The notes under the pieces are model-generated. The model was not told the origin of the DNA and made no database searches. It saw only the letters and a program-made list of their open reading frames with translations. Source: Lantana camara (Eukaryota > Streptophyta > Magnoliopsida > Lamiales > Verbenaceae). Taken from it: a stretch of DNA of 64,000 nucleotides. A program made the position numbers and the translations under genes. Below, one piece after another: positions 1 to 30,180 of the stretch (positions are counted from its first letter, which is position 1; the number at the start of each line of letters is the position of its first letter). The stretch spans positions 47,303,001 through 47,367,000 of the forward strand of contig CM074858.1 in the NCBI GenBank assembly GCA_037501455.1. Reading direction: 5' to 3'.

Positions 1-2453
1 TTATTACATAGATACATATAGGTACCAATTAACTATCACCACATTATCGTTTCTAAATAAGATACATCATTAAGTATTCAAAACGTGACAATAACGATCC
101 TAACATGAAATGTCTCAAAGTATTATACATGGAAGGTGCTAGACTCGTGAAGATGCAAAAGACTCGAACAACGCCCGCCTAGCACGACCACGCTCAAGAG
201 GTACCTGAAAAGTGAAGTATCAGTCTACCGAAGACTGAGTGAGGGGCAATAAATATATATAACACACGTCACATGCAAGTTGTAGCCTCGGGTGAAGACT
301 TTAGCATAAAATAGATATGTAATTCAAGAAGTTAATCTTTGCCCGAGATTACAACCAATCATTTTAACACGTTGATTTAATCATGCTTGTCAATGTCATG
401 AACATGTGGCCCCGGCGAGCAAGGGCAATCTCCAACCGAACTCCCAATCGTGAACAATACGTGATCATGCTTGCTTGCTTGATAAATACGTGATCATGCA
501 ATTTAATTAGTGCTCATATAAACAAGTTCGTGCTTGAAATCATGCAATAACCCGAGGATAACCCGACATGCCGGATTAATCCCCAATCTCCTTCTTCCTC
601 CGGGTGATAGCGAGTTTGCAAGGCTCGACTATCCACGACATGGTGTGTGTAGAGGGTATGACCCTCTAGACACGGAACTCCTTCCACCACTAATCTCCTA
701 GTGGCTTCGGGGGTGATCCCAACAATGTGAGGATAATTCAGGAGTTACCCGTCAGCCCTTGCTTTCTCGGTTGGCTCAAGAATTACCCTCGGGCCCACGT
801 GCAATCATGTACTCGCCAAACATGCTTGAAATCATGATAATCAATACTTTCTTGCTTGGAAATGTTCATGGTTTGAAAATCATTTATAAGTATAATACGT
901 TTTGGCCGAAAACTAGCACCTAAGGGTTATAGGGTTCGTTTTACCAAAACAAAACCTCACCTTTCTTGCAAAATATAATAAATAAGCGTTCTAAGGAGCT
1001 TGCTCCCCGTCCACGCCCTCGTGACCTGTGCAAATACGATGTACATTCGTGAGACATGACCTAAAATGACCAAAATATGACGAACGGCGGAAATGTGTCG
1101 AGACGATCATGAAAATGCAATGTGGTATGATAACATTTTGTTTCACATCATATTAGCACATATTATAGCAATTCGGGGTCAAAGAAGTCGTTGGATCGAG
1201 GGGCTAATTTCATAATTTTATGCAGAAACTTTTGTTCTGCATTACAGGTGGGAACGGCCGTTCCTGTCCCCTTTGTAAAATGGGAACGGTCGTTCCCAAG
1301 AACTCCCCAAAACGTGCCAGCGTTTTTCCCCTTAAAAACGCGCCTAACTGGGAACGGCCCTTCCGGCTCCAAGGCCAAAATGGGAACGGCCGTTCCCGTA
1401 GTCGGCCGCGCGGTTTCAGTTTAAAAGAAGGGAACGCCCGTTCCCACTATGCCTTGAGGCTGGGAACGGCCGTTCCCTGTTTCTGCAACTTACAGAAACA
1501 GAGCAAAAACAGGGGAAGGCTACGGGAATGGCACAACAAGTAACAAAAATCCATTTTTGATCCCCAAAAGCTATAATTTCTGGAAATATGATACACACAA
1601 CTTCAATAAATGATAATATAGCACTTAACCACATAAAACATGCAATATCAACTAGATTTCCAAGGTTTCAAGCTTATGATCAAACTTGATCACTCATGCC
1701 AAATATTCACATATTCAAGCTAGAAATCATGCAATAATTCATGTTATGGTCATTTAATCATGCTTCCATGTCCAATCAATCCATCTAGCATATAATTTCT
1801 AAACCCTAACCCTCTCTAATCTGATCAAGAATCATAAGTCATGCCAAACCAACCTTGAAGATGAGAGAAATGAAGAAGATGAGTGAAGATGATGATCAAT
1901 TTGCTAAAAACTTGGATAATCTCTTGAAATCTTGATGATTGAATGATGAACTACTTCTTCCCTTTTCTTCCTTGGACTACCGAGAGTGAGAGAGAATGGA
2001 ATGGATGAATAAAATGCTCATGGAATGTGGGAGAAGAGAGATGATACGTAATTCATCATCTTGATTTTTGTGAAATTTGCCAAATTGCCAATTAATCCTT
2101 GAAGAACTCAATCTATCCGATTGAGTATACCAGGTTTTAAAATTAAGATCAATTAAGTCCTTAAAGGATTAGCAATTACGTCCCTAGAATTTTAGAAAAT
2201 ATTTAACTAGGGACAATTTGGTAATTTTATTACTCTCGGTATTGATTTTATGCAAGGAAATATTTTCCGTGTCATGAAATAATATTTTTGATGATATGAA
2301 ATCAAATGATTTATATAAACAATGTTTCATGAATTTTATAAAATTTATAAATGCCACGTAAGAATATATTATAAAGTAAAGAAATAAAATAAACCTACGC
2401 TCAAACTCACACGTGGCGTGCTTACCTGTTCATCCGGAAACCGGGGCGTTACA
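1..2453 (-). repeat. 3' LTR of element 1 (truncated by window)
   Basis: This stretch aligns base for base with 5284-7734. It begins on minus with TGTAACGCCCC at 2453, directly after the polypurine tract. It is AT-rich and has no credible coding region; short open frames over the dyad cluster (1163-1543) exist in both LTRs only because the sequence is repeated. Six 16-bp dyads lie at 1250-1477. Confidence 0.93.
1250..1477 (-). promoter_or_regulatory. Hexad of GGGAACGGCCGTTCCC-type dyads, 3' LTR copy
   Basis: Six 16-bp GC-rich inverted repeats start at 1250, 1282, 1350, 1382, 1430 and 1462. Read in LTR orientation the start-to-start distances are 32, 48, 32, 68 and 32 bp. The copy duplicates the cluster of the 5' LTR. 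Function is unknown; see the findings. Confidence 0.8.
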
Positions 2454-2492
2454 ACTCTCCCCCCCTTAGAAGAATCTGGTCCCCCAGATTCT
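2454..2492 (-). promoter_or_regulatory. Polypurine tract and adjoining hairpin of element 1
   Basis: On minus a purine run (complement of 2454-2470) directly abuts the LTR start and is the expected primer for plus-strand DNA synthesis. Just upstream, 2471-2492 is a perfect inverted repeat: AGAATCTGG, a four-base loop, CCAGATTCT. A hairpin in the same place with a different stem sequence occurs in the other elements of this window. Confidence 0.85.
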
Positions 2493-3211
2493 CTAGTCTT
2501 GCTCGAACAACTCCGGGTGGAACCGTTTCATTTTATCCTCTGTTTCCCACGTCACTTCCTCGGTTTTATCGCTTCTCCACAAAACCTTAACCATGGGAAT
2601 TCTCCGATTTCTCAACTCTTGAAATTTCCGATCCATGATTCTAACCGGCCTCTGCACAAATGTCAAATTCGGTTCCAGTTCAACTTCTTCCACGGGGAGA
2701 ATCGGGTCTCATCGGGGTAATATTTCCTTAATTGTGAAACATGAAACACGTTGTGAATCCCCGTAAGACTCGGTGGTAGGTCCAGTCGATAGGCTGCCTC
2801 GTCTATTCTTTCCAGAATCTCGAACGGACCTAAGTAGCGAGGATTAAGTTTTCCTCCTTTCCCGATCCGGGTGAAACCTTTCCTTGGTGACACCTTCAAG
2901 AATACCCGGTCACCCACTTCAAATTCTAGATCTCTTCGGCGCTTATCGGCGTAGCTCTTCTGCCTATCTTGCGCGGCTTTCATCCGTTGTTGAATCATTT
3001 GAACCTTTTCAATCATAGCTTGAACAACTTTGGAAGGCCTTTGTAATCTTTCACCTCTCTGTACCCCTTCCTGTTTCGACCACTTCCATTCTTCCAAGTC
3101 GAAGAACAACGGAGATCGGCACTTTCTTCCATAAAGTAACTCGTAAGGAGCCATCCCTATCGAAGCCTGAAAGCTGTTATTATAAGCAAACTCGATCAAG
3201 GGAAGCTGTTC
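2493..3211 (-). pseudogene. Integrase C-terminal half and chromodomain, element 1 (broken)
   Basis: This continues the 3212-4819 frame after an in-frame TAA at 3212-3214. It encodes the distal integrase region (FAYNNSFQASIGMAPYELLYG, then the GDRVFLKVSP and LGPFEILERI segments of the integrase C-terminal domain and the VFHVSQLRKYYPDE motif). A one-base deletion near 2697-2700 shifts the frame; the second part (2493-2693) carries the chromodomain signature VLWRSDKTEEVTWETEDKM...FHPELF. In chromoviruses this domain targets integration to particular chromatin. Both the stop and the frameshift would remove it from any product, so I call it a pseudogene with confidence. Confidence 0.9.
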
Positions 3212-4819
3212 TTACCACGAGTTCTGAAAATCCATCGCGCAAGCCCGAAGAAGATCTTCCAAATACCTGATTAACCTCTCAGTTTGACCATCCGTTTGCG
3301 GGTGAAATGCTGTACTGAACTTAAGTTTCGTACCCAAGACAGCCTGTAATTCCTGCCACAACTTCAAAGTAAATCTCAGGTCTCGGTCTGAAACTATGCT
3401 CACCGGAATACCATGAAGTCGAATAATCTCTCTGTTATAGATTTCAGCCAACTTCGGGATCTTATAAGACATCCGGACCGGTAGAAAGTGAGCAGACTTT
3501 GTAAATCTATCCACGATCACCCAAATTCCATCAAACCCGCCTTTAACCTTTGGTAATCCGGAAACAAAATCCATCGTTACTTGTTCCCACTTCCACTCGG
3601 GAATAGGTAACGGTTGTAGAAGTCCCGCGGGTTTTTGGTGCTCAGCTTTCACTTTCTGACAAGTCAAGCAATGTTTCACATATTCTGCCACGTCTCTCTT
3701 CATCCCGTTCCACCAATAATATTGTTTCAAATCCTTATACATTTTATTTCCTCCTGGGTGGATCGAGTAAGCTGACTTGTGAGCTTCTTCAAGTAGGACC
3801 CGTCTCAACTCTTCAGGTACTACTACTCTATTTTTAAACCGAAGCAACCCGGTCTCATCAAACCCAAATGGACTCTCCGGGTCATCCTTAGCTTTACTTA
3901 CAAGCCTCTGCACTTCCGGATCCTTATTCTGAGCCTCAAATAACTGATACCTTACTTCCGGCTGAACTGTGATATTAGAAACCCGAGCCTTTAACACAAT
4001 CGGGGCGACTTCCTTACCTTCCTTTATTTCCAAACTCGATACACTCGCCTTCCTGCTAAGTGCATCGGCGACCACATTGGCTTTCCCGGGATGGTACTTA
4101 ATTGTACAATCATAATCCTCTAGCTTTTCCATCCAACGCCGTTGCCTCATATTCAAATCCTTCTGTGTGAATAAATACTGGAGGCTCTTATGGTCTGTAA
4201 AAATCTCAAAGGAAGTCCCATAAAGATAATGTCTCCATTTCCCGAGAGCGAAGATCACGGCTGCAAGCTCTAGGCCGTGTGTTGGATAATTCCTTTCATA
4301 TTCCTTTAGCTTTCGAGAAGCATAGGCGATCACTTTTCCTTTCTGAGTCAAGACACAACCTAAGCCTTCTTTAGAAGCATCTGTGTACACTGCATATCCC
4401 TCGGAACCCTCGGGTAGCGTTAACACCGGAGCTGAGACTAACTTTTCTTTCAAAAAGTTGAAACTTTGATCACACTTCTCATCCCAGACAAACTTAACAT
4501 CCTTCTTTGTCAACCGGGTTAACGGTGCCGCAATCTTGGAGAAGTCCTGAACAAATCTTCTATAGTAACCGGCCAATCCCAAGAAGCTTCTAATCTCCGA
4601 GGCATTCTTTGGTTTCTCCCATTTGAGCACGGCCTCAATTTTCGAGGGATCGACTTCCAACCCTTTTCCTGAAATCACATGCCCCACTACCGCATTCATA
4701 AAATCCTGGGGCTGTACCTGAGCAGGCGGAGGAGGGGGTGATCTCTCGCGGCGATGATGTCGGCGATGATGATGCCTGTGCCTCGAGGATCGATCACTGA
4801 AATGTCTGTCGTGCTCCAT
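3212..4819 (-). pseudogene. Gag N-terminus fused to RNase H-integrase (internal deletion)
   Basis: A 535-codon open frame begins at an ATG 234 bp after the primer site. Residues 1-40 are a basic, His/Arg-rich and Pro-rich gag start (ending QVQPQDF). From about residue 41 the sequence jumps directly to the RT thumb/connection ([14 protein letters not shown]), so the gag body, protease and RT palm with YVDD are gone. The RNase H acidic residues are visible (D147, E184, D209, D252). Integrase keeps its zinc-binding residues (H347 or H354, C384, C387) and the catalytic triad D417, D478 and E514 with the usual D-35-E spacing. The frame ends at a TAA inside integrase, just after FQNSW. The deletion joins gag to pol in frame. 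Whether the fusion is translated is unknown; it cannot reverse-transcribe. Confidence 0.93.
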
Positions 4820-5053
4820 CCTGAAATTAGATCACTAAACATGCGTGGCTTGATCAATAAATGCAAATGTGTGCATAGGATTCCAAGATATCAAATAACA
4901 CGTGTTCAAGGAAGATCAAGTAGCTCAATTCATGCGAAGAAATGAGTAAATCAGGTAAATCAACCAAATGCAGACTCCCAAATACCACATAATCCTATGC
5001 CGTGCGACCTAGACTGACTTGACACGACTCGAGAACCTCGGTTTTGCAACCGG

Positions 5054-5065
5054 GCTCTGATACCA
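5054..5065 (-). promoter_or_regulatory. Primer-binding site, initiator Met tRNA (element 1)
   Basis: The complement reads TGGTATCAGAGC, which matches the 3' end of plant initiator methionine tRNA. It starts 8 bases after the 5' LTR end (...GCTACA). The 234 bp from here to the ATG at 4819 are a non-coding leader. Confidence 0.93.
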
Positions 5066-5073
5066 CCTGTAGA

Positions 5074-7734
5074 TGTAGCACCCTAAAACCCAAGGCGCCA
5101 CATCCCCCGCACTATAGCCTCGATCCACGTATGAAATGGACAGTTCATACATAAACCAAGACCACAGCGAACGGGTGACAATAAAAATGACGAGCTAGGC
5201 GGGACACTCTCCCCAACATAATCAAAGCAAACAGGAATAGAAAAGCGGAAGCAATAAAGTCATTCATACATATAGGTACCATATTTATTACATAGATACA
5301 TATAGGTACCAATTAACTATCACTACATTATCGTTTCTAAATAAGATACATCATTAAGTATTCAAAACGTGACAATAACGATCCTAACATGAAATGTCTC
5401 AAAGTATTATACATGGAAGGTGCTAGACTCGTGAAGATGCAAAAGACTCGAACAACGCCCGCCTAGCACGACCACGCTCAAGAGGTACCTGAAAAGTGAA
5501 GTATCAGTCTACCGAAGACTGAGTGAGGGGCAATAAATATATGTAACACACGTCACATGCAAGTTGTAGCCTCGGGTGAAGACTTTAGCATAAAATAGAT
5601 ATGTAATTCAAGAAGTTAATCTTTGCCCGAGATTACAACCAATCATTTTAACACGTTAATTTAATCATGCTTGTCAATGTCATGAACATGTGGCCCCGGC
5701 GAGCAAGGGCAATCTCCAACCGAACTCCCAATCGTGAACAATACGTGATCATGCTTGCTTGCTTGATAAATACGTGATCATGCAATTTAATTAGTGCTCA
5801 TATAAACAAGTTCATGCTTGAAATCATGCAATAACCCGAGGATAACCCGACATGCCAGATTAATCCCCAGTCTCCTTCTTCCTCCGGGTGATAGCGAGTT
5901 TGCAAGGCTCGACTATCCACGACATGGTGTGTGTAGAGGGTATGACCCTCTAGACACGGAACTCCTTCCACCACTAATCTCCTAGTGGCTTCGGGGGTGA
6001 TCCCAACAATGTGAGGATAATTCAGGAGTTACCCGTCAGCCCTTGCTTTCCCGGTTGGCTCAAGAATTACCCTCGGGCCCACGTGCAATCATGTACTCGC
6101 CAAACATGCTTGAAATCATGATAATCAATACTTTCTTGCTTGGAAATGTTCATGGTTTGAAAATCATTTATAAGTATAATACGTTTTGGCCGAAAACTAG
6201 CACATAAAGGTTATAGGGTTCGTTTTACCAAAACAAAACCTCACCTTTCTTGCAAAATATAATAAATAAGCGTTCTAAGGAGCTTGCTCCCCGTCCACGC
6301 CCTCGTGACCTGTGCAAATACGATGTACATTCGTGAGACATGACCTAAAATGACCAAAATATGACGAACGGCGGAAATGTGTCGAGACGATCATGAAAAT
6401 GCAATGTGGTATGATAACATTTTGTTTCACATCATATTAGCACATATTATAGCAATTCGGGGTCAAAGAAGTCGTTGGATCGAGGGGCTAATTTCGTAAT
6501 TTTATGCAGAAACTTTTGTTCTGCATTACAGGTGGGAACGGCCGTTCCTGTCCCCTTTGTAAAATGGGAACGGTCGTTCCCAAGAACTCCCCAAAACGTG
6601 CCAGCGTTTTTCCCCTTAAAAACGCGCCTAACTGGGAACGGCCCTTCCGGCTCCAAGGCCAAAATGGGAACGGCCGTTCCCGTAGTCGGCCGCGCGGTTT
6701 CAGTTTAAAAGAAGGGAATGCCCGTTCCCACTATGCCTTGAGGCTGGGAACGGCCGTTCCCTGTTTCTGCAACTTACAGAAACAGAGCAAAAACAGGGGA
6801 AGGCTACGGGAATGGCACAACAAGTAACAAAAATCCATTTTTGATCCCCAAAGCTATAATTTCTGGAAATATGATGCACACAACTTCAATAAATGATAAT
6901 ATAGCACTTAACCACATAAAACATGCAATATCAACTAGATTTCCAAGGTTTCAAGCTTATGATCAAACTTGATCACTCATGCCAAATATTCACATATTCA
7001 AGCTAGAAATCATGCAATAATTCATGTTATGGTCATTTAATCATGCTTCCATGTCCAATCAATCCATCTAGCATATAATTTCTAAACCCTAACCCTCTCT
7101 AATCTGATGAAGAATCATAACTCATGCCAAACCAACCTTGAAGATGAGAGAAATGAAGAAGATGAGTGAAGATGATGATCAATTTGCTAAAAACTTGGAT
7201 AATCTCTTGAAATCTTGATGATTGAATGATGAACTACTTCTTCCCTTTTCTTCCCTGGACTACCGAGAGTGAGAGAGAATGGAATGGATGAATAAAATGC
7301 TCATGGAATGTGGGAGAAGAGATGATACGTAATTCATCATCTTGATTTTTGTGAAATTTGCCAAATTGCCAATTAATCCTTGAAGAACTCAATCTATCCG
7401 ATTGAGTATACCAGGTTTTAAAATTAAGATGAATTAAGTCCTTAAAGGATTAGCAATTAAGTCCCTAGAATTTTAGAAAATATTTAACTAGGGACAATTT
7501 GGTAATTTTATTACTCTCGGTATTGATTTTATGCAAGGAAATATTTTCCGTGTCATGAAATAATATTTTTGATGATATGAAATCAAATGATTTATATAAA
7601 CAATGTTTCATGAATTTTATAAAATTTATAAATGCCACGTAAGAATATATTATAAAGTAAAGAAATAAAATAAACCTACGCTCAAACTCACACGTGGCGT
7701 GCTTACCTGTTCATCCGGAAACCGGGGCGTTACA
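5074..7734 (-). repeat. 5' LTR of element 1 (2,661 bp)
   Basis: The LTR runs on minus from TGTAACGCCCC (7734) to GGGTGCTACA (5074). The same family, with the same ends and 2,643 bp, forms the solo LTR at 45497-48139. Inside are the dyad hexad (6534-6761), a short CAGTCT/AGACTG hairpin near 5510-5525 before the LTR 3' end, and AT-rich sequence. I recognise no gene; open frames over the dyads are by-products of the repeat. Confidence 0.93.
6534..6761 (-). promoter_or_regulatory. Hexad of GGGAACGGCCGTTCCC-type dyads, 5' LTR copy
   Basis: The dyads start at 6534, 6566, 6634, 6666, 6714 and 6746. Two match GGGAACGGCCGTTCCC exactly (6666 and 6746); the others carry one to three changes. They lie 973-1200 bp into the LTR, between a CCCCTGTTTTTGC-like box and a TTTCTGCA box. 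Confidence 0.82.
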
Positions 7735-9269: not shown

Positions 9270-9467
9270 GGGAACGACCCTTCCCTTTGCCTTTGTTATT
9301 GGGAACGGTCTTTCCCATATTTAAATAAGATTGCATGGCGGCGAGGGCGGGAAAGGCCATTGCCGTTTTAGCTTATAAGCCGGAACGACCGTTCCCATCT
9401 TCGGGGAGCAACTTCGGGGAGTTGGGAACGGCCCTTCCCATTTTGAACTAAGGGCCGGACCGTTCCC
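9270..9467 (+). promoter_or_regulatory. Dyad hexad in LTR A
   Basis: Dyads of the GGGAACGGCCGTTCCC type start at 9270, 9301, 9349, 9381 and 9424, with a decayed sixth near 9454. In LTR D the sixth is intact, and there the spacings are 31, 48, 32, 43 and 32 bp (starts 16845, 16876, 16924, 16956, 16999, 17031). Confidence 0.8.
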
Positions 9468-10138
9468 AGGCCCCTGGAGAGGCAGTAAGTTTTTGCACAA
9501 AAATGGGAAATTCCAATTCTATTCCTTTGCCCTTAATTGATCCCAACATGTTATTATATGATCAATTACATGCAAAAATAGGATTATATCATAATACATT
9601 TGTTAACGCAAATTACCTCATTACCTGCTTATGCCTTGCGTTACATTTTGGTCACATTATCGAGTTATGATCTCATGAGGGCACAAACGTTTCTGTTTGT
9701 TGTCCAGTTGTTCTTCGCGGCGGAGAATGGGATCAATGAGCACGTTCACGCATCCATGAGACGTCATGTCACCTGTCAGCAAGCAAGTCAGGCACATGCA
9801 AAGCAATGCATGTAGCTAGATTAATGTCATAGTCGTGCAAAGCAATTCGCGTACTGTGATTATCGTGTTAATGTCATGGTCTTAAAAAGCAATGCGTGCA
9901 TCGTGATTATCGTGATTAACTTGTTACTTTGTACCGCTCGTCAGCCGCAGGAGCTAAGTGCTATACGGGGCAAAGTGCTATGCACATGGGAGCCACCTCT
10001 TGAGCCTGCGGAGCAAAGTGCTACATGTGTGGGGGCCACCTCTTGAGCCTGTAGGAGCCACCTCTAGAATCCTAATGCTGCGTGCATCGTGATTATCGTG
10101 TTACCGTGAACGGTGAAGGCTCGCAACCTTCCCATTAA

Positions 10139-10917: not shown

Positions 10918-13235
10918 TGTAACGCCCCAAATTCCGACTTCCAGGTACGCGCGACACTTGTGAATTTTTCGAGAGTTAGGATTATTTTAATTCTTGTATT
11001 TTTTAAATTCTTACATTTTATAGTAAATCCTATAAATTATATTTCAATGTGATTATGTGAAATATGTGTCAATTTGAGAATTATTCTACAAATTGAATTT
11101 AATTGTTACGTGAATTAAGTCCCGAACGTGCCTTAATTGTTTGTATGTCCTTAATTGATCATCATTTTAAATGTGAGGACCAAATTGCATGAATAATTGT
11201 TGGACCAAAGTGAATTAAATTGTAGGAATGAAACTTGATTGCATAACTTACATAAATAAGGGACTTAATTGGAATTTAAAGCATTTCATCAAAACCAAGG
11301 CATGAATTACGTGATATATCTTCTTCCATCTTCCATGATTAATTTCATATCATACCAACCCACCATTTTGCTTCCTCCATGGCCGAACCAAAAATATTAA
11401 GGAAGAAAAAGGGAATCTCATTATTTCAAGTTAAAATCTTTGAGGAATTGAGGGTCTTGGAGGATCATCTTCATCATCATCTATCATCTCTTTCTTTCAA
11501 AGATAAGATATGAATACATGAATTCTTGAATACATGAGCTTGAAGCTAGGGTTGTGATTTTATGTAATAACTTGTTTATGTGATGCTAGAAGCATGATTA
11601 GGAGCCTTGAATCTGAATTCCTTGAATATATTTTGGAGTTTGTCAGGTTATGTGATGAGTTCATGTTTAGGGGTGAAGTGATGATTCTTGGAGATTCAAG
11701 CATGATATAAGTGTTTACACAAGTTTTATTGTATATTAAACATGTATAAGTGATGATCCTTGAAAATACAATATGGAATTGAATTATATGAGTTTTGATG
11801 AGACTTGGGTATGGTTCGAGCTTCCCCTGTTCTGCTGCTCTGTTTCTGCATCTTTTGCGCTGTGGGAACGACCCTTCCCTTTGCCTTTGTTATTGGGAAC
11901 GGTCTTTCCCATATTTAAATAAGATTGCATGGTGGCGAGGGCGGGAAAGGCCTTTCCTGTTTTAGCTTATAAGCCGGAACGACCGTTCCCATCTTCGGGG
12001 AGCAACTTCGGGGAGTTGGGAACGGCCCTTCCCATTTTGAACTAAGGGCCGGACCGTTCCCAGGCCCCTGGAGAGGCAATAAGTTTTTGCACAAAAATGG
12101 GAAATTCCAATTTTATTCCTTTGCCCTTAATTGATCCCAACATGTTATTATATGATCAATTACATGCAAAAATAGGATTATATCATACGACATTTGTTAA
12201 CGCAAATTACCTCATTACCTGCTTATGCCTTGCGTTACATTTTGGTCACATTATCGAGTTATGATCTCATGAGGGCACAAACGTTTCTGTTTGTTGTCCA
12301 GTTGTTCTTCGCGGCGGAGAATGGGATCAATGAGCGCGTTCACACATCCATGAGACGTCGTGTCACCTGTCAGCAAGCAAGTCAGGCACATGCAAAGTAA
12401 TGCATGTAGCTAGATTAATGTCATAGTCGTGCAAAGCAATTCGCGTACTGTGATTATCGTGTTAATGTCATGGTCTTAAAAAGCAATGCGTGCATCGTGA
12501 TTATCGTGATTAACTTGTTACTTTGTACCGCTCGTCAGCCGCAGGAGCTAATGTGCTATACGGGGCAAAGTGCTATGCACATGGGAGCCACCTCTTGAGC
12601 CTGCGGAGCAAAGTGCTACATGTGTGGGGGCCACCTCTTGAGCCTGTAGGAGCCACCTCTAGAATCCTAACGTGCGTGCATCGTGATTATCGTGTTACCG
12701 TGAACGGTGAAGGCTCGCAACCTTCCCATTAATGGAGTCATGGAGTGATTGGAGTGATGGAGTTTATTGGGTGATGGAGTGTATTGGAGTGATGGAGTTT
12801 ATTGGAGTAATGGGATTTATGGGAGTGATGGAGGTATTCATGAAATCGATATATGTGCAGTGTTCTTGCAGGTACACTCTAGGCGGGAATCGAGCTGAAT
12901 CGAGTCCTTGCATTCGAGTCAAGCACGGTGCATTCACTTAATATTTCAAAAGCATTGTTATTATTGTAAATGTTATTTATTTTGTTTCGTATTTTAGGAG
13001 ATGATAATGTATTGATATGTAAATTCATAATACGGGCTACTGGATAAATGATAAATAGTTTAGTATGCTTCCGCTTTATTCTATCGCATGTATAAGTTTA
13101 GTTCCGCCTAGCTTGTCATTTTATTTGCATTGTCACCCGTTCGCTATAGGTTGGTTCATGTACGAATTACCCGTTTCGTATGTGGATCGACCTATAGTGC
13201 GGGGGTGTGGCTTCCTTACGTATCGGGGTTCTACA
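10918..13235 (+). repeat. Concatemer LTR B (2,318 bp)
   Basis: Nearly identical to LTR A along its whole length, including the changed end GGGTTCTACA. A and B therefore look like the most recent duplicates. It carries the same dyad hexad and minisatellite. Confidence 0.9.
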
Positions 13236-13510: not shown

Positions 13511-15609
13511 TGTAATGCCCCAAATTCCGACTTCTAGGTACGCGCGACACTTGTGAATTTTTCGAGAGTTAGGATTATTTTAATTCTTGTATTTTTTAAA
13601 TTCTTACATTTTATAGTAAATCCTATAAATTATATTTCAATGTGATTATGTGAAATATGTGTCAATTTGAGAATTATTCTATAAATTGAATTTAATTGTT
13701 ACGTGAATTAAGTCCCGAACGTGCCTTAATTGTTTGTATGTCCTTAATTGATCATCATTTTAAATGTGAGGACCAAATTGCATGAATAATTGTTGGACCA
13801 AAGTGAATTAAATTGTAGGAATGAAACTTGATTGCATAACTTACATAAATAAGAGACTTAATTGCAATTTAAAGCATTTCATCAAAACCAAGGCATGAAT
13901 TACGTGATATATCTTCTTCCATCTTCCATGATTAATTTCATATCATACCAACCCACCATTTTGCTTCCTCCATGGCCGAACCAAAAATATCAAGGAAGAA
14001 AAAGGGAATCTCATTATTTCAAGTTAAAATCTTTGAGGAATTGAGGGTCTTGGAGCATCATCTTCATCATCATCTCTCATCTCTTTCTTTCAAAGATAAG
14101 ATATGAATACATGAATTCTTGAATACATGAGCTTGAAGCTAGGGTTTTGATTTTATGTAATAACTTGTTTATGCTATGCTCGAAGCATGATTAGGAGCCA
14201 TGAATCTGAATTCCTTGAATATATCTTTTGCGCTGTGGGAACGACCCTTCCCTTTGCCTTTGTTATTGGGAACGGTCTTTCCCATATTTAAATAAGATTG
14301 CATGGCGGCGAGGGCGGGAACGGCCCTTCCCATTTTGGCTTATAAGCCGTAACGGCCATTCCCATCTTCGGGGAGAAACTTCGGGGAGTTGGGAACGGCC
14401 CTTCCCATTTTGAACTAAGGGCCGGACCGTTCCCAGGCCCCTGGAGAGGCAGTAAGTTTCTGCACAAAAATGCGAAATTCCAATTCTATTCCTTTACCCT
14501 TAATTGATCCCAACATGCTATTATATGATCAATTACATACAAAAATAGGATTATATCATACTACATTTGTTAACACTTATTACCTCGTTACCTGATTATG
14601 CCTTGCGTTACATTTTGGTCACATTATCGAGTTATTATCTCATGAGGGCACAAATGTTTCCGTTTCTTGTCCAGTTGTTCTTCGCGGCGGAGAATGGGAT
14701 TAATGAGCACGTTCACGCATCCATGAGACGTAGTGTCACCTGTCAGCAAGCAAGTCAGGCCCATGCAAAGCAAAGCGTGTAGCTAGATTAATGTTATAGT
14801 CATGCAAAGCAATTCGCGTACTGTGATTATCATGTTAATGTCATGGTCATACAAAGCAATGCGTGCATCGTGATTATCGTGATTACCGTGTTACTGTGTA
14901 CCGCTCTTCAGCCGCAGGAGCTAAGTGCTATACGGGGTAAAGTGCTACGCACATGGGAGCCACCTCTTGAGCCTGCGGAGCAAAGTGCTACATGTGTGGG
15001 GGCCACCTCTTGAGCCTGTAGGAGCCACCTCTAGAATCCTAACGCTGCGTGCATCGTCATTGTCGTGTTACCGTGAACGGTGAAGGCTCGCAACCTTCCC
15101 ATTAATGGAGTGATGGAGTGATTGGAGTGATGGAGTTTATTGGAGTGATGGAGTGTATTGGAGTGATGGAGTTTATTGGAGTAATGCGATTTATGGGACT
15201 GATGGAGGTATTCATGAAATCGATATATGTGCAGTGTTCTTGCAGGTACACTCTAGGCGGGAATCGAGCTGAGTCGAGTCCTTGCATTCGAGTCAAGCAC
15301 GGTGCATTCACTTATTATTTCAAAAGCATTGTTATTATTGTAAATGTTATTTATTTTGTTTCGTATTTTAGGAGATGATAATGTATTTATATGTAAATTC
15401 ATAATACGGACTACTGGATAACTGATAAATAGTTTAGTATGCTTCCGCTATATTCTATCGCATGTATAAGTTTAGTTCTGCCTAGCTTGTCATTTTATTT
15501 GCATTGTCACCCGTTCGCTATAGGTTGGTTCATGTACGGATTACCCGTTTCGTATGTGGATCGACCTAAAGTGCGGGGGTGTGGCATCCTTACGTATCGG
15601 TGTGCTACA
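13511..15609 (+). repeat. Concatemer LTR C (2,099 bp, internal deletion)
   Basis: This copy starts TGTAATGCCCC, with a CpG-type C-to-T change. About 220 bp are missing at 14224 relative to LTRs A, B and D: the sequence jumps from CTTGAATATAT to CTTTTGCGCTGTGGG. The loss removes the region just before the dyads and leaves the dyads themselves. Confidence 0.9.
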
Positions 15610-15889: not shown

Positions 15890-18222
15890 TGTAACGCCCC
15901 AAATTCCGACTTCCAGGCACGCGCGACACTTGTAAATTTTTCGAGAGTTAGGATTATTTTAATTCTTGTATTTTTTAAATTCTTACATTTTATAATAAAT
16001 CATATAAATTATATTTCAATGTGATTATGTGAAATATGTGTCAATTTGAGAATTATTCTATAAATTGAATTTAATTGTTACGTGAATTAAGTCCCGAACG
16101 TGCCTTAATTGTTTATATGTCCTTAATTGATCATCATTTTAAATGTGAGGACCAAATTGCATGAATAATTGTTGGACCAAAGTGAATTAAATTGTAGGAA
16201 TGAAACTTGATTGCATAACTTACATAAATAAGGGACTTAATTGTAATTTAAAGCATTTCATCAAAACCAAGGCATGAATTACGTGATATATCTTCTTCTA
16301 TCTTCCATGATTAATTTCATATCATACCAACCCACCATTTTGCTTCCTCCATGGCCGAACCAAAAATATCAAGGAAGCAAAAGGGAATCTCATTATTTCA
16401 AGTTAAAATCTTTGAGGAATTGAGGGTCTTGGAGCATCATCTTCATCTTCATCATCATATCTCATCTCTTTCTTTCAAAGATAAGATATGAATACATAAA
16501 TTCTTGAATACATGAGCTTGAAGCTAGGGTTGTGATTTTATGTAATAACTTGTTTATGTGATGCTAGAAGCATGATTAGGAGCCTTGAATTTGAATTCCT
16601 TGAATATATTTTGGAGTTTGTCAGGTTATGTGATGAGTTCATGTTTAGGGGTGAAGTGATGATTCTTGGAGATTCAAACATGATATAAGTGTTTACACTA
16701 GTTTTATTGTATCTTAAACATGTATACATATTTCCTTTCTTGAATTATACCATATGGAATTTAATTATATGAGTTTTGATGAGATTTGGGTATGGTTCGA
16801 GCTTCCCCTGTTCTGCTGCTCTGTTTCTACATCTTCTGCGCAGCGGGAACGACCCTTCCCTTTGCCTTTGTTATTGCGAACGGCCGTTCCCATATTTAAA
16901 TAGGATTGCATGGCGGCGAGGGCGGGAACGGCCCTTCCCGTTTTGGCTTATAAGCCGGAACGGCCGTTCCCATCTTCAGGGAGCAACTTCGGGGAGTTGG
17001 GAACGACTCTTCCCATTTTGAACTAAGGGCCGGAACGGCCGTTCCCAGGCCCCTGGAGAGGCAGTATGTTTCTGCACAAAAATGGGAAATTCCTATTCTA
17101 TTCCTTTACCCTTAATTGATCCCAACATGCTATTATATGATCAATTACATGCAAAAATAGGATTATATCATACTACATTTGTTAACGCATATTACCTCGT
17201 TACCTGATTATGCCTTGCATTACATTTTGGTCACATTATCGAGTTATGATCTCATGAGGGCACAAATGTTTCTGTTTCTTGTCCAGTTGTTCTTCATGGC
17301 GGAGAATGGGATCAATGAGCACTTTCACGCATCCATGAGACGTTGTGTCACCTATCAGCAAGCAAGTCAGGCCCATGCAAAGCAATACGTGTAGCTTGAT
17401 TAATGTCATAGTCGTGCAAAGCAAAGCTCGTACTGTGATTATCGTGTTAATGTCATGATCATACAAGGCAATGCATGCATCGTGATTATCGTGATTACCG
17501 TGTTACTGTTTACCGCTCGTCAACCGCAGGAGCTAAGTGCTGTATGGGGCAAAGTGCTACGCACATGGGAGTCACCTCTTGAGACTGCGGAGCAAAGTGC
17601 TACATGTGTGGGGGCCAGCTCTTGAGCCTGTAGGAGCCACCTCGAGAATCCTAACGCTGCGTGCATCGTGAATATCGTGTTACCGTGAACGGTGAAGGCT
17701 CGCAACCTTCCCATTAATGGAGTGATGGAGTGATTGGAGTGATGGAGTTTATTGGAGTGATGGAGTGTATTGGAGTGATGGAGTTTATTGGAGTAATGGG
17801 ATTTATGGGAGTGATGGAGGTATTCATGAAATCGATATATGTGTAGTGTTCTTGCAGGTACATTCTAGGTAGGAATCGAGCTGAGTCGAGTCCTTGTATT
17901 CGAGTCAAGCACGGTGCATTCACTTATTGTTTCAAAAGCATTGTTGTTATTGTAAATGTTTTTTATTTTTGTTTCGTATTTTAGGAGATGATAATGTATT
18001 GATATGTAAATTCATAATACGGACTACTGGATAAATGATCAATAGTTCAGTATGCTTCCGCTTTATTCTATTACATGTATAAGTTTAGTTCCACCTAGCT
18101 TGTCATTTTATTTGCATTGCCACCCGCTCGCTATAGGTTGGTTCATGTACGGATTACCCGTTTCGTATGTGGATCGACCTATAGTGCGGGGGTGTGGCAT
18201 CCTCACATATTGGGGTGCTACA
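15890..18222 (+). repeat. Concatemer LTR D (2,333 bp), right end of array
   Basis: A full-length LTR that ends GGGGTGCTACA. The next bases, AAGAT (18223-18227), are the expected right target duplication of the whole array, but the left partner lies outside the window. Its dyads are the best preserved of the array. Confidence 0.9.
16845..17046 (+). promoter_or_regulatory. Dyad hexad in LTR D
   Basis: Six 16-bp dyads start at 16845, 16876, 16924, 16956, 16999 and 17031. Three contain an intact CGAACGGCCGTTCC or GGAACGGCCGTTCC centre. They lie about 955-1157 bp into the LTR. Confidence 0.82.
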
Positions 18223-18502: not shown

Positions 18503-20326
18503 ATTACGTACACACATGCATAAGGATATTTATATATATATGCATGCATACACAGAATATTACACACATAAATATATACAAGTACATGGTATACATAATT
18601 TAGGATCAAATAATAAACATTTAAGGGCAAGGTTTGCATGATTAAAACAAGAAAAAGAACAAATTACGCAACAGCAGCAGCTAGGGTCGAAACTAGCCAA
18701 AAACAAGGTCGCGGGGGCGACCCAATTCAGGCTAAAATGAGTCATGGTAGTGATCAGCTCCAGCAGCAGCCTCCATCTCTGTTACAGGTCAAAACTTGTG
18801 CAATTTAGGGTCACGGGCGCGACCCAAAAACACTTAAACTCGCTCGCTGCGCGACTGCTACACACAGTCGCGAAACGAGAGCAGAAACTCCCCTGTTTCT
18901 GATCTCCCTTGAAGCAGCAGCAGCTCAGGACAAAAGGCCACCCACAAGACAGTAACATGGCTAAACAAACACATGCAAATCTGGTCTAAAACATGCTCAA
19001 CAACAATAGCAAACCACACGCAGCACAAGGGAGCAAATTTCAGTCACAAAATTTAAAAATCTCATTCCATTAATGGTGGTTCGAGTTGCAGCTATCAACC
19101 ATGAAATTTGAGCATATAAATGTATAAATGAATGTCTTAAGATCATACTTCATGCATTAGTTCAAGATAAAGGGTAGAGAAGGCATGAATTCATCCAAAA
19201 ATGGCACATAACCTAACTATTCATCAAGCTAGCCATTACATGATCAATTCTCCAAGAAAATCAGAAAATAAGGAGTCCAAAGAAAGAGGAAAGGATGGAG
19301 ATTACAAATCCAGATTACCTTTCAAATTTGAGCCGAATCGGATGAGAAACGAGCTTGGAAATCAAATATGGAATAGTGCCAATCTCTCTCTCCCTTCTAT
19401 CTCTGTTTGCCGCAGTTTTCCTCCCCCTTTTCTACTGAGGAACGAACTAGAAAGACAAAGGAGAGAAAGGGGAGTAAGTGAGGAAAATGCGGGGCCAAGA
19501 ATGGGTTGAATTGGTCAAAGATTGAACAAGTTATGGCCAAAATGGTAAAATGTGGCGAATCTGTCACACGGGTCAAGTTTCGGGCAAAATTTGGAGCTTC
19601 GAACGAGTTTGGAAAATTATGAATCTATGTTTCTTAGTTTCCTTTCTTCGTTACGAGTCTGACACCTCTTCCGGAATTCGAATCCGAATCCCTGAGCTCC
19701 ATATATGTCGCCCGGAACCAGAGGTGCGCTAAATGCTCTTAATCTCCCGACTTGGTCTCGTTCTCAAAATAAAATTCGTTAACACCCCCAAAAAAATCGA
19801 AAACAGGAAACGAGCACGTAGACAAGTTCATAACACATAAATCTACAACATACTAAAATTGCACAATTTTTCGGAATCAAAACCTATATGTGCAAAACAT
19901 TCAAGAATTCATTTAAATTCATATTCAAATATTTCAATTATAAAATTAAATTTCGTTTTAAATTTGATTAAAATATAACGAAATAAATATATTTAAAATG
20001 ACTAATTAAAAATTATAATTAAAATAAATAATTAATTACATAATTAAATAATTTAAACGCACACTTACGTAAAAATCCATACATTTTCGAATAAATACAA
20101 AAATTAAAATCAAAGAATTTCATATTAATTAAGAAAATTGAATTTCATAAAGACAAGTCAACGCATTAAAAAATAGAATTAATATTTATATAACTTAAGA
20201 TATAAATATTTAACATTTTAATATTTAATATAAAATTAAATATACAAAACACTTATAAACAATTAATTCGCGCAATTTGGTAAACACATACGTCATACTA
20301 GAATATGAAAAAGTTGGGGCATTACA
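18223..20326 (-). repeat. LTR fragment, minus strand, cut by the concatemer
   Basis: On minus the fragment starts TGTAATGCCCC at 20326 and stops where the concatemer begins, so its 3' part lies left of the window. It interrupts the integrase frame of element O; ATATT (20327-20331) would be the target duplication. It contains AT microsatellites, very AT-rich sequence between about 19900 and 20270, and diverged GGTCGCGGGCGCGACC-type dyads at 18707 and 18809 with a related TCGCG/CGCGA block near 18840-18875. Open frames at 18295-18639 and 19201-19509 lack domains and lie in repeats. Confidence 0.75.
18341..18387. repeat. (TA)n microsatellite
   Basis: An uninterrupted TA run inside the LTR fragment. 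A second, shorter run follows at about 18474-18497. Confidence 0.9.
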
Positions 20327-21818: not shown

Positions 21819-24800
21819 TGTAGCACCCCGCACGTGAGGCACCACATCCCCCGCACTAAGGCTCAACACGAGTAACGAAACAGTAAATCCGCACCCGTAT
21901 CAAACCCTAGCGAACGGGAGACGAACATAAAAGCTTTCCTAAGCCAGGCGGAGCTAGACCCTGCAATGAAAACCAATCTACAAAGTACAATGCATTGCAA
22001 AGCCAAAAGATCAATCATACAAATCATAAGCAGAAATTTGGGCTCTTCAGGCCTCTTTTAAATCAATAGCAAAACTCAGTAACAGCAATTCAACTCCAAT
22101 TACATGAATATTCCAGTTCATGATATAATAGAATGAATCATACATAATTCCAATACAGAAATGAGTGCAGAGACTCTTCTAATCTAACTCGACTCACTGA
22201 AAGACTCCCGACACCTCCGCCTAGCTCGAAACTCCAAAGCCCAACCTGCACACTAAAGTGTTGGGGAGGGAGAGGGTCAGTCTCTAGAAGACTGAGTGAG
22301 CAGGAGCGATATATATATAAAACATGCACATGCAAGTCATAAATCCCGAGCAAGGTTTTATTTGAAATGATCCCCACTAAGGGTAAGAAATAGATAAACA
22401 ATGCTCGAACTTTACGACTAAATCATATTAAATTCATTACATTCATAAATCATACATAAATATAAGGCTCGGCGAGTGAGCGTGCACAATCTCCAACCAA
22501 CTCCGACCGTGTACGACAAATATCATTAATATATTGATTAGGCGATCATGCAATATATCATAATACACACAAATCATAAATCATGTCCTAAATATATTGT
22601 TTGGGCAATCCGATGCCCGGCCTTCCCGCACCGTGCCTATCAATCAATAATCAATCAGTCAATCAATCATTTTCAATCATAAATAAGTTCCAACCTTCTT
22701 CCTCCGGGTTGGTGGTGGGTTTGGAAGACCCGACCACCCGATCATTGGCCAAAAGGGGTTACATGACTCCCCAGATGGCACTCAGCTCCCTTTCCCCGCC
22801 AATCTCCTGACGAGGTCCGGTACCGCTGTCTAGTAGTGGGACTAGTGTGAGGGTTTACCGTCAGCCCTTGCCTTCTCGGGTCCCCACTCACACCAAGCCC
22901 CTGGTCCCCAATCCGTGCAATCAATCAATCAATCTTTTCTCGCCAAAACATTTGATTTATAAAAATCATACCGTATCCATCATTATCCATTTGAAAAGGG
23001 TTTACTCGATCAATACATACTATAAGAAATCATACCTTACCGTGTAAATCGGCATATGCTATATACGTACCTCTCCGTGTCATCCTAATCCGTAGCTAGC
23101 ATGAAGACACACGGTTTGGAGCATAGCCTCATTACAAAACCATTTTTAAGTTATAAGCTCAAACGCGTAATTCAGAAGGACTTACTCGATAACTCCATTT
23201 GAAAACCATATATGTATAATCATAAGGTTTTGGCTAAAGCTTTTCACATAAGGGTTGTAGGGTTTATTATATAGCTAAAACAAAAACCACCCTCACCTGA
23301 ACCGTGACGAAACAAGGAACGGGTTAACAAGTGCTCGAACGATCAAAAGCTCTCCACCCTGGAGACAAACTGTACAAAAGACCACAAGACGTGTTCGTGA
23401 GACTCAAGACTCTAAATGAACCATATAAGACGCACGGCAATGCTCAAGCATGATATGAAGGCATAAGGATCATATTAAGTCATGAAATGTTCATGTGCAT
23501 GATTAAGACATTTAACTCGTATATCCAAGTCATTCACTCAATCATTCATTATCATTCAATTCATATTCCCAATCAATTTATTTCAAGAACTCAAATAGGA
23601 GCATAGAACATATTCAAGCTCTTCCATAATGTCACCACATACTTCATATTACATAACATAGCATATATTTAAGGTTTGACAACAAGAAGAAGTCTTATGA
23701 TAAAGAAAATAAGTGATGCGATTCGTAAACGACATATAAACACACATAAACGGCATTCAATAAAAGCATGCCTAAAACACATCCAAATATCATGAAATTG
23801 CACCATAATACTCCTAACACATAGCCAAACAAGTTCATAGTTCAACACGAAAGGAGATAAAATCAATAAGGAGGGGAAACAAATCAAAAACCGAAGAGGA
23901 AGTAACAAAGACTGCACATGGGAAGTGACACGGGGGTGTCACCAACCCTAGCCCAACTGAGCCACGGGCGTGGCTCAGTACAGAGCTGCCCAGAAGGTGT
24001 GACACGCCCGTGTCTCCCTCTTATGAGTAAATGAGACACGGGGGTGTCACGGTACAGAACTTAGGGCGATTACAGATTTTTCCGGCAAAACTGAACTCAT
24101 ACAAAATCAATCCAAAGGCATACCAAATGAACTCTAAATGCTCTGAAACTTGATATGCAACATATTTGGCATGTTATGAACATTTTTCATTTAGAGTGAA
24201 AAGGCTAAATCGCACGTTAAGGTCATCGAATCCACGCAACAAAACTGGGTCGCCAAAAACCGTACATAAAGGATCAATTGTTCAATCATGCCTTGTTCAA
24301 GTACTTAGGGCTTGAATTTGGATCTGAAACTTTGGGGAATGCATGCTAACATACTAAACAACTTATATACATCATATATATGCAAAATGGTACCATTTAA
24401 AGCACATTAGAATGATCAACAAGTTACAAAATGTAACAGCAACAATTCTGTCAACAATCATGCATAAGAACAGGCCATGTACTTCGGTTTTGAGGCTTCA
24501 AATGGAACCAAATACTTAAAGCATGAATGCTAACATATATAACAATGAGTGTACATCAACTCCATGCAATTTCACACGAAATGGAGGCCATATGATCATG
24601 CAACAACACAAAATTTCACACAGCAGTCACAAAACAGGGGAAATAGTTTGATCATCAAGTTTGAAGCTCCATATCTCATAATTTTATAAAAGGAGCAAGA
24701 GATGAAATCCTCCTAACATCATATACTATCAGTTGGGAAGGAAATAGATCAAGAAACAAGTTCATATGATCATGTTTAAGCAAGGAAATCAGCTACACAA

Positions 24801-25870: not shown

Positions 25871-26129
25871 GTTGGGATTAATGGAGATCATTTCATGCCC
25901 TGTTTTTCGCGATTTATACCCTGTTTTTGGGCGAGAAAGTTACTGTCAAAACTGCTGCGTTTCCTCCTTGCTTTTGCTGTCAATTTTGTGCATTGTTAAG
26001 GCTGATTTGTTGCAGCTTTTCATGCTATTTGTTGCTACTTTTCTTGCCCATATATTGCATCAGTTGTTGATGCGTTTAAGCTAGAAAAACAGGGGAAAGT
26101 CTGCGTTTGTTGCTGCTGCTGAACGGGTT

Positions 26130-26250
26130 GACAAGGGTGTGTCGTTCTTGTGTGTTCCAGCGTGAAACGGGGGTGTTCTTGTGGTCTGAATTTCTGTACC
26201 GAGACACGGGGGTGTCTCGGTTTGTTCTTTGGGGTTGACATGGGGGTGTC
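26130..26250 (+). promoter_or_regulatory. Tetrad of GACACGGGGGTGTC-type dyads
   Basis: Four copies, two of them decayed, start at 26130, 26164, 26203 and 26237, spaced 34, 39 and 34 bp. The geometry agrees with the related LTR at 23926 within 1 bp. Confidence 0.8.
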
Positions 26251-28120
26251 ACCTTATAATTCTCCATGCATGTATTGCTGTTGAGTTGCTGCTACTGCTT
26301 CACGTTTCCCTTTCCTTTCTTTCCTGCATAAAGTGTTGATTGTTATGCATGAGTTTGCATGTTTATTGTTTGCATGTATATATGTATATATAAACCTAAA
26401 CTATTGCATGCATGTGTTATAATATTGTATGAAAAATTTCATGAAATTGTTGGTTTTGCATGCATGGGTTACGTATGCATGTGTATTTATATATATATAT
26501 ATATATAAATAATATAATATAGTATATGTATATTATATTTAATTATATATTTATATATGTTTATTAAATATTAAATGTTATTTGATTTAATTGAATATTA
26601 GAATTTAAATGTTACCTATTTCATGTTTTATTTAATTTCCAAAATTTAATTGAATGTATTTAATTGTTTAATTTCTAATTGTAAATGCGATTGAATGAGT
26701 TTAATTGTCCATGCTCTAAATTTAAATGTGATTTAACTGGTGCTATGAATATATTTGAATTAATTTTATTGAAAATGTTGAATTATGAAAGTGAATGACT
26801 TGATTATGTGATTTAAATATATTAATAGTGCACATGAACATTTTCGTAACATAATTTTATCTTTTATATATTCATATCATGATCATTGCATTGCCGAGCG
26901 TCTTATTTGGTCATATTGAGTCTCACTTCACCTTTCTTGCACAGATTTTGATCCAGTTGGAGACGAGGCCGGTCAGTGAGGCTCGTGCTTTCTTCTTTTG
27001 ACGGTTTAAGGTGGGTTTTTCTCCTATGTAGATATAAGACCCTATATATACCTTCAATGTGAAAGCTTTCGACCAAAATTATATATATATATAGAGAGTC
27101 GTTTTAAAGAGTAAATGTTTTCAACGTAAAGCCTTATTTTATAAACCCTACCTAATGTTTTGGCGAGAAATGATCGAATGCACGAATGGGGCCCAGGGAC
27201 TTAGTGTGAGTGGCTATCCGGGGAGGCACGGGCCGACGGTGAACCCTCACACTAGTTCCATCAATGAACGGCGTAACCGGCCCTCGTTAGGAGTTAGTGA
27301 GGAATGGACGCTGAGCGCCATCTTGGGAGTCATGTAACCCCTTTTGGTAAATGAATGGGTGGTCGGGCCTTGCAAACCCGCCACCAACCCGGAGGAAGAA
27401 GGTGGAAATGTTAATGAATGTGCATAAAAGAATGATTGTATGAAAGAAAGAATGAATGAATGTTTAAATGGTTTACACAAGGTGTTGGTTGGAGATAATG
27501 CACGCCCACTCGTCGGGCCACTAATGACCTAATGTTAATGATCCGTTATAATCCCTTTTGATGATTTCTATTCTCCCACTTGGGAAATTCTTTAAAAACC
27601 TCACTTGGGATTATAACTTGCATGTGAATGTTTAATTACCGTCATATATTCTATTTATGGCCTATTTTATACCCACCGGTCCCTTTTGGACTGAACCCGT
27701 TTGGTTTTCAGCTGTGTTGTGCAGGTGTTGAGGGAGCTAGGCGGGAATATGAGTCCTAGGTCTTGCATTCGTCTCTAGCTCTTATATTTTGGTCTTACAC
27801 TTGCATACTTTTATTTTGATCATTGTATATGTATAATGATGTGGAACGTACATGTTTTGGGCCGTGATGGCAATTGATGATGTATATGACTTATTTTTGG
27901 AGCTTGGATGCTCATGGTACATATATATATGGTATATGTTCGTTTATTGCTTCCGCTTTAATGTTTTATGTTGTTTTATGGTTTTAAGGGTTAGCCCGCG
28001 TAGCTTAGTGTGTGTGTCTGTCCCCGTTCGCCGTGATTTGGCTCGGGTATGGATCGTCCATTTCATATTCGGGTCGGGTCTCGGTGCGGGGGATGTGACA
28101 CCTTGCGCTCGGGTGTTACA

Positions 28121-29215: not shown

Positions 29216-30180
29216 TGTAACGCCCCAATTTTCGGAAGTTCAGGTAAGCACGCCACGAGTGGGTCTTCAGGAGTTAGGAGGTTTAATTGAAATATTTCAT
29301 TCATTTATTTATAAAATTTGTCATATTATATGCATTATATCTTCATGCATTTATATGAAGTGTCGTTAATGTGAATTTATGTGAGTTGTATGAAACTAAT
29401 TGCTATACGTGAATTAATTGTACTGTATGTCCTTACTTGATCCTTAGTGTAAATTTGTATACTTAATTGCATAACATGAGATGGATATAAGTGATCTTTT
29501 GTGTAGAGATGAAACTCGATTGCATGAATTTAAATAGCTTAAGGACCTATGTGCCAATTATGATGATTCATCCATTTTCTTAGAAGACTTTGGAATATAT
29601 TTATCTCTTACATTACATTTCATTCCTTATGTTTTCATCAAGAAAAGACACACATATACACACAATATATCGATCCATACACCAAGGAAGAGAAGGGAGA
29701 TTCATCTCATATTTCAAGCTAGAATTTTGGAGGAATTGTGAAGCTAGAAGCATCATCATCATCATCTCTTCATTTCATCTCATCTCTCTTCCATTTTAAG
29801 GTATAATATGAGATTATATGAATCTCTTAAAATTTGTATGATGTAGGGTTTGATGAGTATTTTATGATTTCATGATTATGGGTGGATTAGAAGCATGCTT
29901 ATGATCATTAGGATTGGAATCTTGCATGAAACCTTGAATTATATGAAAGTTGGAAGCTATGGAAAATATGGGGTTTTCATGATTGATTCTTGAGGCTTTA
30001 ATGCATATTTCATGGTTTATTTGATATCTTGATGAAGTATAATGTGTAATAGATGCATTTGAGTATTTTTTATGGAGTGAAATTGCATTTGTTGTGGTTT
30101 TGTGAGGTTTTGGTTCGTTTCCCCTGTTTTGCTTCGGCTACGTAGAGTAAAATTGGTCGCGCCCATGACACACTCATAGT

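Follow-up and report, generated by a model that had tools for sequence, protein, structure and literature searches.

The long terminal repeats (LTRs) of a group of retrotransposons in Lantana camara carry arrays of 16-bp inverted repeats (dyads) that stand in tightly spaced pairs, and whose arms change between families while mostly remaining self-complementary. We analysed the arrays of a 64,000-nucleotide stretch (assembly GCA_037501455.1, contig CM074858.1, positions 47,303,001 to 47,367,000; hereafter the window), together with loci elsewhere in the 1.27-Gb genome. Our preferred interpretation, offered tentatively on sequence evidence, is that the arrays may be composite DNA-binding sites for a dimeric, probably host-encoded protein whose sequence preference varies from subfamily to subfamily. 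Of the options offered in an earlier note, which reported the arrays from the letters of the window, a dimeric protein is still the strongest. The clusters listed there are present, their positions agreeing to within a few bases. Several dyads are imperfect, and the array at 42599–42721 is decayed. The half-site has the form NNNNNCG...CGNNNNN, with a near-constant C-G centre, and we refer to its five outer letters as the word.

The unit of an array is a pair of dyads, tightly spaced within the pair and loosely between pairs. Within-pair spacing is 31–35 bp, mostly 31, 32 or 34 bp, and between-pair spacing is 38–52 bp or more. Among 148 distinct neighbour gaps from the loci in hand, which derive from related arrays merged only where the spacers were identical, 76 fell at 31–35 bp, 55 at 38–52 bp, 11 at 68–102 bp and 6 below 29 bp. 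The 76 short gaps consisted of 43 of 32 bp, 14 of 34 bp, 13 of 31 bp, five of 33 bp and one of 35 bp. A search for pairs that allowed any start-to-start distance of 30–35 bp returned 2,170 forward places and 42 for the control; the 88 distinct strings among the matches listed were spaced by 34 bp (59), 32 bp (25), 35 bp (3) or 31 bp (1), with none at 30 or 33 bp despite widely differing spacers. Among the CCAAAC matches listed, 10 of the 17 neighbours within 130 bp lay exactly 32 bp apart and none at 31 or 33 bp. Arrays hold four to about eleven dyads (eight in L003, at least 11 in L030). A palindromic 15–18-bp spacer within pairs, suspected by eye (ATTTTG..CAAAA), was discarded, as 59 of 224 positions were self-complementary compared with 58.3 after shuffling (28 distinct pairs). 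A spacing close to three helical turns and intolerant of insertions and deletions fits DNA. It is unexpected, given the unlike spacers, of the single-stranded linkers that would join the dyads if they acted in RNA, where the 16-mers might fold as 6-bp hairpins or pair between molecules and so direct dimerisation or co-packaging within a subfamily, word differences between subfamilies arising as in retroviral dimer-initiation palindromes. We regard RNA self-recognition of this kind as the chief rival to the protein reading, though rather unlikely.

Covariation of the arms was measured in clustered sites, each chosen for one of seven six-letter cores at its centre and for having another such site no more than 110 bp away. 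The 134 sites comprise 68 from a random sample (20 loci of 10 kb, 200 kb in all), 30 from the window and 36 from loci L039–L047, where the selection of loci fixes pair 5. Pairs 1–5 were complementary in 76, 93, 103, 105 and 107 of the 134 sites, against shuffle means of 35, 52, 40, 53 and 66, and in 30, 45, 47, 50 and 50 of the 68 random sites, against 18, 24, 19, 29 and 25. Perfect dyads made up 57 of the 134 and represented 17 distinct half-sites. Arm changes are thus paired beyond shuffles, with the geometry held, as the earlier note had proposed, so that two of the outcomes it named as refuting, arm changes without pairing and freely variable spacing, are not observed; its four arm groups are present, within a sample that holds at least 17 perfect half-sites. 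The outermost pair of the GACAC family was counted genome-wide. In 27,462 sites the left letter was a purine in 10,573, the right a pyrimidine in 10,671 and both in 7,917, where 4,108 were expected (odds ratio ~15), and 80% of sites were purine/pyrimidine-matched compared with 53% expected. Both letters were present in 38 of 62 GACAC sites among the matches listed (35 exact Watson–Crick), and the purine on one side only in 24. All four outer pairs are represented among perfect GACAC dyads, and a single array (L043) contains GGACAC, AGACAC and TGACAC dyads, each exactly complemented. A look at double arm changes around GGGAAC covered 188 contexts, of which 75 are at three mismatches and largely noise, and was not decisive. 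The two dyads of a pair tend to agree: partners shared arm letters 1–4 in 53, 57, 79 and 84 of 88 listed pairs, compared with 27, 44, 38 and 52 after shuffling.

Compensated outer letters could also arise from mutation, if template switching within DNA hairpins, during reverse transcription or repair, kept the arms matched without any selection for symmetry, perhaps atop a simple binding site. This would explain the asymmetry of the central bases as well, since they cannot pair in a hairpin. It leaves unexplained the tight spacing, the sharing of letters between neighbours, the conservation of GGGAAC described below and the retention of certain mismatches, and we hold it to be improbable; symmetrising mutation may nevertheless contribute under either a DNA or an RNA reading. 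The mismatches occur in the GGGAAC group, whose arms were described as self-complementary. They are not uniformly so: among 60 oriented dyads, C.C oppositions occur at pair 1 in 15 and at pair 6 in 10.

Several observations bear on whether the dyads act as RNA. U3 is copied at the 3' end of the genomic RNA, and R is present at both ends. Each of the seven half-sites submitted was predicted to fold into a hairpin of 6 bp closed by a 4-nt loop, and the homodimers predicted for all nine sequences submitted ranged from -17 to -35 kcal/mol. The array of element A gave a fold z score of -7.3, its bracket string being read as dyad pairing 1:6, 2:5 and 3:4, although repeated palindromes inflate such a score in any case. 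The 5' RNA of yeast Ty3 dimerises in vitro via a short palindrome, according to the portion of PMC11381356 available to us. Compensation at an outer pair whose identity seems immaterial also suits RNA. Against it stand the fixed C.C mismatches and the lack of a general wobble excess: 119 oriented dyads contained 22 G.U and 12 A.C oppositions, 11 of the G.U coming from ATCCAC dyads, a result that is not decisive. A CCAAAC variant pattern, CCAAACGCCCGTTTRR, matched 2,076 places compared with 1,792 for the perfect form, the 284 additional sites carrying G-to-A changes at the two outer right-arm letters; this was not used as evidence. Arrays were oriented by LTR ends and pol in the window, and elsewhere by shared flanks or by a CCCTGTTTT-like word, which lies upstream of 11 of 19 arrays printed. 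Among the 60 oriented GGGAAC dyads, 34 have a GGCC core, which is also frequent in GGACAC dyads outside the oriented set. In the other families, 57 of 59 oriented dyads had cores that are not self-complementary, such as GGGC and GCCC. The earlier note's suggestion that RNAs dimerise by loop-loop contact at a palindromic core is therefore rejected as a general mechanism. Asymmetric cores face either way in some arrays (13 of 21 GACAC neighbours alike among the matches listed). Taken together, the spacing of about three turns, the conservation of words, the kept C.C mismatches and the either-way cores speak for DNA as the molecule.

The words are both conserved and replaced. GGGAAC dyad columns were 85–91% identical between LTRs, compared with 44–74% for the rest of the LTR (four comparisons, one with a single dyad); the sequence between dyads was 45–66% identical (three comparisons). 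Because the dyad columns stand so far above their surroundings, selection on symmetry itself, inferred earlier from the covariation, is not the whole story: the GGGAAC half-site is kept as a sequence. A different picture emerges from eight arrays, one in the window (31171) and seven at other loci (L026, L036, L040–L042, L044 and L047), which are followed after 1–51 bp by a shared flank (GAACTCCRATTGACCTGATTTTTGAACC..TGGAAACCTCTTGAAGTCTAGAACAACC) that is 74–88% identical. The main words before this flank are CTACCC, ATCCAC, CCAAAC, CCACAC and TGACAC, the CTACCC/GTACCC dyads of L026 having one mismatch each. In 24 pairs of arrays with different words, mean flank identity was 81% and only 2.25 of 5 arm letters were shared; a tree of the eight flanks supported none of its five forks. 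Descent from a single ancestral array by duplication and decay, with the covariation contributed by a few founding families, accounts for the common flanks and LTR position, and amplification does inflate the counts. It is nonetheless very unlikely to suffice, in view of the five half-sites behind one conserved flank, the number of perfect half-sites among the clustered sites and the four outer pairs of perfect GACAC dyads. Shared ancestry with simple drift, named earlier as a refuting outcome, thus holds for the ancestry, and simple drift is insufficient because changed half-sites stay complementary. We read the conservation and later replacement of a half-site word as probable recognition of a specific sequence, in which the partner changes from time to time, rather than as drift under pure symmetry. 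Three arrays (L003, L013 and L030) are chimeric, with ATCCAC pairs within or beside GGGAAC pairs, and suggest module exchange between LTR families. In these arrays one word gives way to the other in the looser gaps that separate pairs.

The dyads are abundant. Exact occurrences genome-wide numbered 15,128 for the GGGAAC dyad GGGAACGGCCGTTCCC, 27,462 for the GACAC-family pattern GACACGSSCGTGTC, 4,572 for the half-site pattern GGTAACGSSCGTTACC and 1,792 for the CCAAAC-family pattern CCAAACGCCCGTTTGG, almost 49,000 dyads in all, and each backward control gave 0; because the copies are related, these counts are not independent events. With cores drawn from the window, we found 16 dyads with perfect arms there, compared with a mean of 0.017 in 60 first-order Markov shuffles; allowing one mismatch raised the count to 30, compared with 0.67. 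A wider core rule gave 17 perfect dyads and 5 clusters, compared with 1 and 0 for mirror-image arms. The random 200 kb contained 29 perfect dyads, 5 clusters of at least three, distributed over four of the 20 loci, and 9 pairs in phase; 60 order-2 Markov replicates averaged 1.7, 0 and 0.017, and mirror arms gave 13, 0 and 0. Single dyads with at most one mismatch showed no excess over mirror arms, for which the rule permits two closing letters (73 vs 113 in the random sample, 39 vs 32 in the window), so the signal comes from dyads with perfect arms, from clustering and from phasing. Under looser criteria, pairs were listed in 10 of the 20 random loci, including L029 and L032, which resemble GC-rich noise. 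A first gapped search pattern proved unspecific (14,577 forward, 10,182 control). One scan of viral contigs found the exact dyad in three contigs (L016–L018) without an array and a second was empty; the pol piece had no relative in the viral-contig scan. Repeats resembling ACACGGCCGTGT may be present in cotton and other plants.

Under the protein-binding interpretation, a composite site would be two 16-bp inverted repeats 31–35 bp apart, about three helical turns, on which two dimers of a sequence-specific protein would bind cooperatively. Each subfamily would use mainly one half-site, with the five outer letters as its specificity word, and a switch of word would accompany a change of protein partner, bringing either a gain of transcription or anti-silencing or an escape from a repressor. 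A host origin may be indicated by the distances between listed GGGAAC sites: of 14 distances of 1–9 kb, six are 7.3–7.5 kb and four 5.9–6.1 kb. If the former are LTR pairs, subtraction of LTRs of 2.3–2.7 kb leaves ~5 kb, roughly the size of gag-pol, so that a separate element-encoded factor appears unlikely.

Other results weigh against this interpretation. The outermost GACAC pair covaries although its letter varies, as the G, A and T versions in L043 illustrate, and a dimer site needs no such compensation at a degenerate position. Partner dyads differ at positions 1–2 in L039, L043, L044 and L047, a window array mixes TGACAC with AGCCAC, and position 1 is matched in only 53 of the 88 partner dyads. 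Core orientation in CCAAAC arrays is near-constant (16 of 17 neighbours alike among the matches listed), which favours RNA. Finally, the conservation comparison used dyads selected for their symmetry in one of the two LTRs, a choice biased towards intact dyads. A further possibility, which we judge unlikely, is that the arms serve as a subfamily self-identity code, a self-complementary password in phased pairs recognized by an element's own copies, as RNA or DNA, or by a dimeric factor; new subfamilies would then arise by swapping the word with the lock geometry kept, and relatives would be ignored. Whatever reads the dyads would, given almost 49,000 of them, act at very many genomic places. 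A held geometry with an interchangeable symmetric word makes it testable how subfamilies keep or change host partners and stay distinct, and the different words behind a nearly identical flank would be a ready assay.

The coordinates of the arrays and of element A, whose sense strand is taken as minus because pol lies on minus, are given in the table below.

Table. Dyad arrays and related features of the window. Spacings (bp) between dyads are read along the plus strand, with up to three arm mismatches allowed.
Feature	Position	Strand	Spacing or remark
Array A, six GGGAAC dyads (three pairs), 5' LTR of element A	6534..6761	-	32-68-32-48-32
5' LTR of element A	5074..7734	-	start TGTAACGCCCC; end immediately before primer site at 5065
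Counterpart of array A in other LTR of element A	1250..1477	-	
Internal remnant of element A	2454..5073	-	RNase H, integrase, SH3_Tf2-1, chromodomain
GGGAAC array, LTR A2 (45497-48139)	46457..46683	+	32-47-100-32
GGGAAC array, LTR B1 (8324-10642)	9270..9467	+	31-48-32-43-28; dyad six shortened
GGGAAC array, LTR B2 (10918-13235)	11864..12061	+	31-48-32-43-28
GGGAAC array, third B-series LTR (partly deleted)	14237..14434	+	
GGGAAC array, LTR B3 (15890-18222)	16845..17046	+	31-48-32-75
GGGAAC array, LTR Bm (49004-51671)	50509..50711	-	32-43-32-48-32
CTACCC/GTACCC array, LTR 30181-33380	31171..31293	+	31-45-31
First dyad of GGTCG array interrupted by LTR 30181-33380	30155..30170	not assigned	
Remainder of split GGTCG array	33401..33523	not assigned	
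Decayed GGTCG/AGTCG array, LTR 44291-40458	42599..42721	-	one dyad only within one mismatch
TGACAC/AGCCAC array, LTR 25870-21819	23926..24049	-	34-40-34; core orientation mixed
TGACAC array, partly decayed	26129..26251	+	34-39-34; dyad mismatches 2, 3, 2, 1
Two extra GGTCG-type dyads, 102 bp apart, absent from earlier list	18707..18824	not assigned	

The array-bearing LTRs of the window start with TGTAACGCCCC or TGTGACACCCC and are 2.3–4 kb long, and those with both ends located terminate in CTACA or TCACA; for the array at 26129 an LTR start was not found in the window. Measured from the LTR start, the arrays lie at ~0.95–1.2 kb in A, A2, B, Bm and LTR 30181, at ~1.57–1.69 kb in the LTR starting at 44291 and at ~1.82–1.95 kb in that starting at 25870, in agreement with the offsets reported before (0.94–1.2 and 1.55–1.95 kb). 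The supposed less regular cluster of an element O (30155/33401) turned out to be one GGTCG array split by LTR 30181-33380. Since ATAGT flanks this LTR on both sides (span 30176–33385), it is most likely a solo LTR inserted in the GGTCG palindrome array of another LTR. The second LTR of element A (1–2453) is cut by the window edge and is 99.2% identical over 2,454 bp, and the internal remnant is too short for gag plus a full pol. It encodes RT_RNaseH, then Integrase_H2C2 and then rve (scoring under its cut-off), as well as a chromodomain (PF00385, E 2.3e-6) in a frame that differs from the integrase open reading frame; SH3_Tf2-1 matches occur in element A and at 28784–29044. The sequence TGGTATCAGAGC, which we take to be a tRNA-Met primer site, is exact at 5065 and 40447 and has one mismatch in the B series. 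On its domain content and LTR ends, element A fits a Tekay/Del-like Ty3 chromovirus, and the other array-bearing elements are probably of this type. The Tekay clade is listed in the part of PMC6317226 consulted, and a survey of LTR structure left plant Ty3 LTRs unmodelled owing to length variation, as far as the accessible text of PMC3601003 goes.

Between 7733 and 18222, one LTR family is repeated head-to-tail with a period of ~2,594 bp, made up of an LTR of ~2,319 bp and 275 bp with the primer site and polypurine tract, the copies being 94–98% identical. About 1.5 kb into LTRs A, A2 and Bm, a splice-donor-like AGGTGAGGTTT is common to diverged LTRs and may mark the start of a leader intron. 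A different Ty3 element at 54394–63296 contains reverse transcriptase, RT_RNaseH_2, RVT_3 and integrase, and a 390-amino-acid open reading frame without a Pfam match; according to the portion of PMC6317226 seen, a double RNase H is a feature of the Tat lineage. In or beside this element, an antisense open reading frame of 566 amino acids (61596–63296, minus strand) is likewise without a Pfam match.

A design of paired palindrome arrays was not found described among the papers listed from the open-licence literature, judged mostly by titles and the openings of abstracts. VANDALs are DNA transposons. In the parts of PMC5735166 and PMC10398659 available to us, VANDAL21 of Arabidopsis and its VANC protein resemble the Lantana case in their dense, family-specific short motifs in noncoding transposon DNA, which vary between related families, with repeat units changing together and the motif arrays co-evolving with the protein. 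The motif there, YAGTATTAY, is non-palindromic and in a single orientation, and the binding protein is element-encoded (PMC5735166, same portion). The Lantana arrays, in contrast, consist of 16-bp inverted repeats in tight pairs within LTRs, their cores face both ways in some arrays, and the distance between copies would leave little space for an additional gene. A retroviral dimer-initiation site is typically a single short palindrome close to the 5' end of the RNA. Such palindromes of retroviruses and Ty3 may differ between relatives but have to remain self-complementary, whereas the Lantana arrays have four to about eleven dyads, helical-type spacing and cores that are often not self-complementary. 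Paired, tightly spaced 16-bp inverted repeats with swappable words in LTRs are absent from the portions of the VANC/VANDAL and Ty3 dimerisation accounts at hand. Heat-shock elements (nGAAnnTTCn) were rejected as the identity of the dyads by inspection: GGGAAC dyads read GAA-N6-TTC, CGAAAC dyads read GAA-N8-TTC, and most of the other half-sites lack GAA. The BII boxes of Tnt1 and the heat-shock elements of ONSEN are repeated cis elements in an LTR, with one word per element and a known factor; in the Lantana arrays, by contrast, the word differs between subfamilies while the geometry is held.

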